From positions 1 through 41,065 of the forward strand of contig JAPYPT010000007.1 of the NCBI GenBank assembly GCA_029937535.1: a stretch of 41,065 bases of DNA, read 5' to 3'. Below are positions 35,159-37,162 of this stretch, piece after piece. Every line of letters starts with the position of its first letter. Within the stretch, counting starts at the first letter, position 1. Position numbers and translations under genes: made by a program. A model generated the notes under the pieces. It was given only the letters and a program-made list of their open reading frames with translations. It ran no database searches and was not told the origin of the DNA. Origin of the DNA: Alphaproteobacteria bacterium (GTDB taxonomy: Bacteria > Pseudomonadota > Alphaproteobacteria > GCA-2731375).

Positions 35159-35932
35159 CTACGGTTTGTGCCCGATAAAGGCGTATCCGAAAACCTCGAA
35201 CTTGCGGGCGTTGGGTTCACCGCCCGCGCCGCCGAAGGTATCGACCGCCGGGCCAATACGGATATCTTCAAAACCACTGTCCTGCATCATCTTCCGCCAG
35301 CCTGCACACGGCATGCCACCGGCAATTCAAGCGGTCCAAAGATCGATGTTGCTGATAGCTTCCTCCGGCACCGGCTGGCCATTGGCGATGTCGGCGAATT
35401 GCAGCACGCCGCCAGGGCGCAGGATACGCCAGATTTCACCAAAGACGTGTTTCTTGTCGGCGCATAGATTGATCACGCCGTTGGAGATCACCACATCCGC
35501 CTGACCGTCGCCGACGGGTATCTCTTCCAACAGCCCTTCGCGGAATTCAACGTGATCCAGATCCATTGCCCTGGCCGTGGCGCGGGATTTGGCCAGCATC
35601 TCCTGCGTCATGTCGATGCCGATGACCTGTCCCGACGGGCCTACCTGCTGGGCCGCGATAAAACAGTCAAAACCGCCGCCCGAGCCGATGTCGACCACCC
35701 GTTCCCCCGCTTCGAGGGGACGCAAGGAAAATGGATTACCCACCCCGGCGAATGATTCCACGGCGGCATCGGGCATGGCGCCCACCACCGTTTCGTCATA
35801 GCCCAGGCGTTTGGCAAGCGGCCGGCCGGTATGGAAATGAAACTTTCCATGCGGGTCCAGGGCCACATCCCGGTACTTTTCCTTTACATCCTCTCTCAGG
35901 GCGACGGCATCGACAAGTGTGTCAGTGCTCAT
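35159..35932 (-). CDS. candidate selenoprotein: ArsM-like SAM methyltransferase with in-frame TGA (Sec202)
   Basis: This is a 257-residue methyltransferase if the TGA at 35327-35329 is read as selenocysteine. Residues 1-201 hold a class I SAM domain: FHFHTGRPLAKRLGY, VVDIGSGGGFDCF, GIDMTQEMLAKS, VVISNGVINLCADK and LQFADIANGQPVPEEAI. The frame then reads DLWTA-U-IAGGMPCAGW and continues with MMQDSGFEDIRIGP, VDTFGGAGG, ARKFEVFGYAFIGHKP to TAG. Arsenite methyltransferases and relatives have a catalytic Cys at this LW-x-x-C-I-x-G site, so Sec replaces it. The downstream part keeps family-like sequence and shows no second disruption, arguing against a pseudogene. AGGAAGGG precedes the ATG. The substrate (arsenite or another soft nucleophile) is unproven. 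It diverges from the DmdA-like gene. No selABCD gene is in the window. Confidence 0.8.
35293..35326 (-). promoter_or_regulatory. candidate bacterial SECIS element
   Basis: Immediately after the in-frame TGA the message can fold into a hairpin. The upper stem is GCC (bases +15 to +17) with GGC (+25 to +27). The 7-base apical loop GUGUGCA starts at +18 with G-U, the bases SelB prefers. The lower part can pair CCG (+5 to +7) with CGG (+31 to +33) around a bulge. The loop distance falls in the range known for bacterial SECIS elements. The stem is short and was folded by eye. Confidence 0.5.
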
Positions 35933-36028
35933 TTGTCTTCCCTTCCTCTAATTAGCCACCTACAGGGCCGCATATATCGTACTCTGGCGCGCCGCCAATC
36001 CAAAACGAAAACAGGATGTCCGCCCGCC

Positions 36029-37162
36029 ATGACAACGGATATGGTTACGACCCCGCGAATTCGCAAATCGCCCTACTTCGAGGCGACGGTGCGCGCGGGC
36101 GCTAGTCAGTTCACGGTCTATAACAAGGTCTACCTGCCGTTCGGTTACGACACCCCGGAAGCGGAATATCAGGCCATTACCGAGGCCGTGACGATCTGGG
36201 ACGTGGCCTGCCAGCGCATTGTCGAGATCAGCGGCCCGGATGCCCATGCCTTTACCTCCCTGCTTACGCCGCGGGATCTCGCCACCTGTGCGCCGGGCCG
36301 CTGCCGTTATGTCTTCATCACCGACCCCCGGGGGGGCATCCTGAACGACCCGGTGCTGCTGCGTTTGGCGGAAGACCGCTTCTGGCTGTCCTGCGCGGAC
36401 AGTGACATGGCCATGTGGGCCCGCGGCATCGCCGTGCACAGCGGCATGGACGTGGCCATCGACACGCCCGATGTCTCGCCCCTGCAAATTCAGGGCCCCC
36501 GGGCGCGGGAGGTGATCGTGGCGCTGTTTGGCCAGGCCATGGGCGAATTGGGCTACTACCATTGCCGGGAAACCGCACTGGACGGTATCCCGCTGGTCAT
36601 CTCCCGCACCGGGTATTCGGCTGAACTGGGCTTCGAATTGTATCTGATGGACGGCGCCCGGGGTGTCGAGCTGTGGGACAAGGTGATGGCGGCCGGCGCT
36701 CCCCTTGGCATGAAACCGGCGGCGCCCTCGCGCATTCGCCGCATCGAGGCGGGAATCTTGGACTACGGCGTGGATATGGATGAAACCGTCAATCCGTTTG
36801 AGTTGGGTTTCGAGAGGCTGGTGGCCCTGGACAAGGACATGGATTTTATCGGCCGGGCGGCTCTGCAAGGGATCAAGGCGACGGGTATCCGCCGCCGGGC
36901 GGTCGGGTTGGAAATCGACGGCGCGCCCATTTCCTACAATGAACGTCCCTGGCCGCTGTATCGGGACGGCGACATGATTGGGCATGCCACCTCGGTCATC
37001 CATTCGCCACGCCTGGAGAAGAACATCGCGTTGGCCATGGTCTCGGTTGGTTCCGCGCAACCCGGCACCGCTGTTTGTCTCGCCACGCCCGATGGTGAAC
37101 GCAATGCCGTTATCCGTGAGTTACCGTTCATCGATCCGAACAGGCGGAAATCAAGGGCTTAA
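36029..37162 (+). CDS. DmdA-like aminomethyltransferase (GcvT family)
   Basis: This is a 377-residue folate-dependent methyltransferase of the GcvT/DmdA fold. It resembles dimethylsulfoniopropionate demethylase DmdA more than glycine-cleavage T protein. The pattern is RIRKSPYFEATVRAGA, TVYNKVYLPFGYD, WDVACQRIVEISG, SLLTPRDL, LNDPVLLRLAEDRFWLSCAD and VSPLQIQGPRAREV, then RRIEAGILDYGVDMDE. DmdA takes a methyl group from DMSP to tetrahydrofolate, leaving methylmercaptopropionate. Whether this copy uses DMSP or another N- or S-methyl donor needs a phylogeny; dmdB, dmdC and dmdD are not adjacent. The ATG at 36029 fits family length; the in-frame extension upstream is not conserved. It ends 2 bases from the convergent GNAT gene. 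Confidence 0.82.
   Translation: MTTDMVTTPRIRKSPYFEATVRAGASQFTVYNKVYLPFGYDTPEAEYQAITEAVTIWDVACQRIVEISGPDAHAFTSLLTPRDLATCAPGRCRYVFITDPRGGILNDPVLLRLAEDRFWLSCADSDMAMWARGIAVHSGMDVAIDTPDVSPLQIQGPRAREVIVALFGQAMGELGYYHCRETALDGIPLVISRTGYSAELGFELYLMDGARGVELWDKVMAAGAPLGMKPAAPSRIRRIEAGILDYGVDMDETVNPFELGFERLVALDKDMDFIGRAALQGIKATGIRRRAVGLEIDGAPISYNERPWPLYRDGDMIGHATSVIHSPRLEKNIALAMVSVGSAQPGTAVCLATPDGERNAVIRELPFIDPNRRKSRA

Follow-up and report, generated by a model that had tools for sequence, protein, structure and literature searches.

A gene on the minus strand of the DNA analysed here, a stretch of 41,065 nucleotides from an alphaproteobacterial genome (contig JAPYPT010000007.1; hereafter the window), is interrupted by an in-frame TGA. 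This raises the question of whether the codon ends a protein of 201 residues or is read as selenocysteine (Sec) within a longer relative of the arsenite methyltransferases (ArsM) and, in the latter case, what such an enzyme would methylate.

The interrupted gene and its homologues

The gene holds a single in-frame TGA, codon 202, beyond which 55 sense codons lead to a TAG, giving a whole product of 257 residues (Table 1). A sequence-only reading of the locus had described this reopened frame, and its coordinates proved exact; its expectation that standard gene callers would truncate the protein is borne out as well, given that table-11 gene calling yields 201 residues. The open stretch alone is weak evidence, as 13% of shuffled versions of the downstream 165 nt stay open. 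The neighbouring HemY-like and DmdA/GcvT-like genes are unrelated to the gene, and the arrangement is not conserved and offers no clue to function. The DmdA/GcvT-like gene (36029-37162, plus strand) is divergent from it and scores 368 bits against a DMSP demethylase cut-off of 410.

Table 1. Coordinates of the gene, of its predicted features and of the regulator-like genes beside Chloroflexota copies
Feature	Position	Strand	Basis or detail
Predicted selenoprotein gene, SAM-dependent ArsM-related methyltransferase, 257 aa, Sec at residue 202	35159..35932	-	Sequence, profiles, predicted fold; ATG 35932-35930, stop TAG 35161-35159
Shine-Dalgarno-like GAGGAAGGG, 5' of ATG	35940..35948	-	Sequence
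UGA codon 202, predicted Sec, column of CmArsM Cys224	35327..35329	-	Alignment, orthologues
Predicted bSECIS hairpin	35294..35322	-	Core stem 35317-35299; apical loop CGUGU 35310-35306; loop start 16 nt after UGA
Val64 codon, replaces arsenic ligand CmArsM Cys72	35741..35743	-	Alignment
Gly152 codon, replaces arsenic ligand CmArsM Cys174	35477..35479	-	Alignment
Cys157 codon, candidate partner of Sec202	35462..35464	-	Alignment; in 35/37 Sec forms, 1/8 Cys forms
Cys209 codon (UIAGGxPC)	35306..35308	-	Alignment; kept in Alphaproteobacteria and one Chloroflexota branch
Post-UGA segment, residues 203-257	35162..35326	-	Predicted structure; strands 222-226 and 248-255 of the methyltransferase fold
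ArsR-HTH/rhodanese fusion proteins beside Chloroflexota copies	L098:85-1185, L110:789-1559, L118:2391-3062, L107:813-1487

Evidence beyond chance for the post-TGA frame comes from the conservation of the TGA, from pN/pS and from the replacement of the codon by Cys. All 16 alphaproteobacterial orthologues carry TGA at codon 202 (the window gene is counted; the others, from several families, are 66-93% identical to it), and among 25 full-length homologues with 47-56% identity, drawn from 400 Chloroflexota genomes, there are 21 with TGA, two with TGT and two with TGC. One Chloroflexota sequence (L047), which contains additional stops and a break in the frame, was left out of the Sec members. Across 68 aligned sequences the column is Sec or Cys only, and the tree of homologues requires at least three Sec/Cys changes. 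Cys stands in this column in arsenite methyltransferases (CmArsM Cys224), as the sequence-only reading had anticipated. Mean pN/pS among the alphaproteobacterial orthologues is 0.26 before the TGA and 0.31 after it, values that indicate purifying selection on the part beyond the TGA as well. In one genome (G012) the Sec-methyltransferase gene is split near codon 191 by an insertion with a transposase-like ORF (L027:2058-3266 and L086), the LWTA-TGA-IAGG part lying beyond the insertion.

The predicted recoding signal and the selenium machinery

Synonymous conservation of the gene peaks at codons 205-215, just 3' of the UGA. A stem (13-19 with 25-31) with a 5-nt loop starting 16 nt after the UGA is readable in 37/37 sequences; the second loop position is G in 36 of these, and the folding energy is -7.5 kcal/mol or lower in 34. 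Covariation is seen at columns 14-30 (CG/GC/GU), 15-29 (CG/UA/GC/UG) and 18-26 (GC/UA/CG), and 94.4% of the hairpin's cells are paired, with 22 double-change cells; none of 500 shuffles was as high, and slid controls reached at most 52%. The covariation is strong only once the Chloroflexota sequences are joined to the alphaproteobacterial set: for 13 alphaproteobacterial sequences alone RNAalifold favours another structure and the covariation of the named hairpin is modest. Single-sequence MFE z-scores were not significant. For one sequence (G812) a GUU triloop placed two pairs higher gives a better fit than the shared register, and the Cys forms have a weaker hairpin in which 3-5 of 7 pairs are kept. 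The hairpin conforms to the published bSECIS model (PMC13188914); a scan of the window at Rfam gathering thresholds gave no match, so that the SECIS call rests on comparison and not on a library model.

The genes selA, selB, selC and selD, which the sequence-only reading had named as the ones to look for, are all present in the window's genome. There, selA and selB are adjacent (C314), a tRNA-Sec with anticodon UCA lies on C220, and selD on C274 carries TGA at HGGGUGTK, which shows UGA serving at an established Sec position elsewhere in this genome. Two selD-type genes occur in it (L057:1501-2427 and L058), one with an active-site Sec and one in a larger open frame of 787 aa. Among the alphaproteobacterial genomes tested, selB was found in each of the 15 whose TGA gene is uninterrupted and was not found in G029, a genome with the Cys form. 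For the Chloroflexota, SelB is present in 20/21 TGA genomes and 2/4 Cys genomes against a high phylum background (62/76), and it was not found in G1085, a possibly incomplete assembly with the TGA gene.

Taken together, these comparisons make it almost certain that UGA codon 202 inserts Sec, as the sequence-only reading had argued, and the decoding would proceed by SelB and tRNA-Sec(UCA) via the bSECIS hairpin just 3' of the codon. A genuine stop, with a functional 201-residue product and a downstream frame that is vestigial or forms a small ORF of its own, would agree with the output of table-11 gene callers and with the ATG at codon 207 of the window gene, which could reinitiate translation; that codon, however, is CTG, CTT or GTT in the 10 orthologues outside the window's genus, pN/pS downstream resembles that upstream, the post-TGA segment is predicted to form strands of the fold and Cys stands for the TGA in homologues, all of which makes termination very improbable. 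Misreading of TGC or TGT as TGA might be suspected in a draft genome of 534 contigs, but the identical TGA stands at 16 alphaproteobacterial and 21 Chloroflexota loci in separate assemblies with the hairpin conserved, and a sequencing or assembly error, which had been named as an alternative at the outset, is contradicted to the point of being negligible. We give just as little weight to a change of the genetic code with UGA read as Trp or another residue, for which there is no specific indication, given that TGA terminates 9/32 window genes and, in several orthologues, this very gene, that homologues have Cys and not Trp at codon 202, and that tRNA-Sec is present.

Active site and candidate substrates

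The protein matches Pfam Methyltransf_31 (1.7e-29), a class I SAM-dependent methyltransferase family, and CmArsM can be superposed on its predicted structure (pLDDT 89) across residues 43-257 at Z 25.7. Since residues 203-257 contribute two strands to the methyltransferase fold in this model, a protein ending at residue 201 would lack part of that fold. Sec202 is aligned to Cys224 of CmArsM, an enzyme in which Cys174 and Cys224 are both required for methylation of As(III) and MMA(III), and Cys72 for As(III) (PMC3877260). In all 45 members of the subfamily (37 Sec and 8 Cys forms) position 64, equivalent to Cys72, is V, I, M or T and position 152, equivalent to Cys174, is Gly, whereas the ArsM comparison set has Cys at these columns in 22/23 (one gap) and 23/23 sequences, respectively. 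The subfamily thus lacks the full set of three Cys that defines the arsenic site (CmArsM 72, 174 and 224): positions 64 and 152 are without the Cys needed in CmArsM, and position 202 alone is kept, as Sec. This result gives no support to the earlier proposal, made from the sequence, of an arsenite methyltransferase in which Cys has simply been exchanged for Sec, and the active site is very probably non-canonical. Cys157 is found in 35/37 Sec forms, 1/8 Cys forms and 1/23 ArsM (Fisher p 6e-6 for Sec versus Cys forms, a statistic that ignores relatedness), and this residue may pair with Sec202.

Linkage of the gene to a sel locus is seen in two to three lineages and is absent from the window's own genome. 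G208 has the arrangement selA-selB-(one unrelated gene, opposite strand)-tRNASec-gene-selD-PrdB-like selenoprotein and L035 the arrangement selA-gene-selD(with TGA)-...-selU/mnmH, and in G001 about 1 kb separates the gene from a tRNA-Sec that neighbours a tyrosine recombinase (L083:8114-9648). Such linkage may reflect a function in selenium metabolism, or no more than a selenoprotein travelling with its machinery. The tRNA-Sec and recombinase of G001 possibly mark an island at tRNA-Sec. A PrdB/GrdB-like protein with an in-frame TGA in a UPFC motif lies directly 3' of selD (L073:10472-11698, plus strand) and adds another selenoprotein to the sel locus; a related ORF is located near selD in L035. 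In Chloroflexota, genes for ArsR-HTH/rhodanese fusions adjoin both Sec and Cys forms; four are confirmed by Pfam (G1052, G941, G1047 and G783) and the others cluster with those. Haloarchaeal Cys relatives that lack both arsenic cysteines are found on plasmids, where an OsmC-family gene precedes them and a second methyltransferase gene follows (L069:3426-5621, L071:2955-5622).

Codon conservation, the covarying hairpin, the sel machinery, the residue pattern and the predicted fold are computed results; the chemistry and the substrate we infer. The Sec202 selenolate, standing at the position of ArsM Cys224, would bind or activate a soft substrate to which a methyl group would be transferred from SAM, with Cys157 probably acting as second ligand or redox partner. 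Plain arsenite is unlikely as the substrate, because the other two arsenic ligands are missing, and the retention of one arsenic-binding position out of three points to another function, perhaps in the chemistry of selenium or sulfur. Our confidence is high in one 257-residue selenoprotein with a non-canonical site, and it extends to no particular substrate. A selenium or sulfur species appears plausible at somewhat less than even chances and is slightly favoured over a metalloid that binds to a rebuilt site, which is itself quite possible; some other substrate is the least likely.

The enzyme could be a metalloid methyltransferase after all, its arsenic site rebuilt from Sec202 and Cys157 (and Cys209) so as to methylate species of Sb or Te, or MMA(III). 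Such a reading is compatible with Sec and concerns the substrate only. The nearest folds are CmArsM and CrArsM, Cys157 goes with Sec, and ArsR-family regulators adjoin several Chloroflexota copies. Against these stand the loss of both partner cysteines in all 45 members, the inactivity of CmArsM C174 mutants on iAs and MMA (PMC3877260) and the fact that Cys157 does not occupy the Cys174 position. Furthermore, no ars genes were recognised beside the alphaproteobacterial copies, where ORFs were inspected by eye, and G007, G011 and G208 also possess a distinct ArsM-like gene in which the usual cysteines are present wherever the positions can be read. We regard the rebuilt metalloid site as a real but minority possibility. 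More specific than the general preference for selenium or sulfur, and doubtful in this full form, is the proposal that the two-phylum subfamily, locally within a selenium operon, methylates selenium (or persulfide-type) species, and that a Sec-Cys pair replaces the three-thiol arsenic site on the ArsM architecture.

Comparison with known systems

Because table-11 annotation drops the end of the enzyme, a selenoprotein conserved in two phyla can readily escape notice. The subfamily offers natural Sec/Cys pairs with SECIS gain and loss, and a test case for an ArsM fold working after the loss of two arsenic ligands. If the substrate were indeed a selenium species, Sec synthesis and selenium methylation would be joined in one operon.

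Sec at an ArsM-like UxxG site, including fused multi-Sec forms, is already catalogued and is not new, so the suggestion that the protein was undescribed falls in this respect; that it was under-annotated stands, no NCBIfam model having reached its cut-off among the 25 matches listed for it. For the two-phylum single-Sec branch without the other two arsenic cysteines, no description was found in the literature and libraries searched, which did not cover Haft and Tolstoy 2025. Both PMC2398784 and PMC13188914 list a Sec-containing ArsM (PRK11873/NF008823, UxxG), the second with reference to Fomenko et al. 2007. The window protein has the fold family and the UxxG motif (as UIAG) in common with it, but scores 222.4 bits against NF008823, below the curated cut-off of 263, and, as a possible further difference from the catalogued Sec-ArsM, is without the Cys72 and Cys174 equivalents. 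The GOS survey placed eight Sec sequences under PRK11873, and some of these could belong to the branch of the window protein.

NF041537, NF041536 and NF047649 represent the ArsM-AhpD, ArsM-DUF2284 and methyltransferase/UXPK-star multi-Sec selenoproteins, which PMC13188914 credits to Haft and Tolstoy 2025. Residues 7-226 match their N-terminal methyltransferase part (226, 205 and 200 bits) and UxxG is common to all, whereas the window protein has one Sec and no fused domain and stays below the cut-offs of 510, 575 and 460, a separation based on score, Sec count and domain content. With the NF041537 profile, no member over cut-off was found in 398 Pseudomonadota genomes. The bacterial selenium and tellurium methyltransferases bTPMT, MmtA and TehB (PMC11422209) resemble the window protein in proposed activity only, and homology is not claimed. 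CmArsM (PDB 4fr0, 6cx6) and CrArsM (5evj) are similar in structure (Z 24.6-25.7, 28-30% identity), with Sec202 at the position of Cys224, and the window protein differs from them in that two of the three arsenic ligands are replaced.
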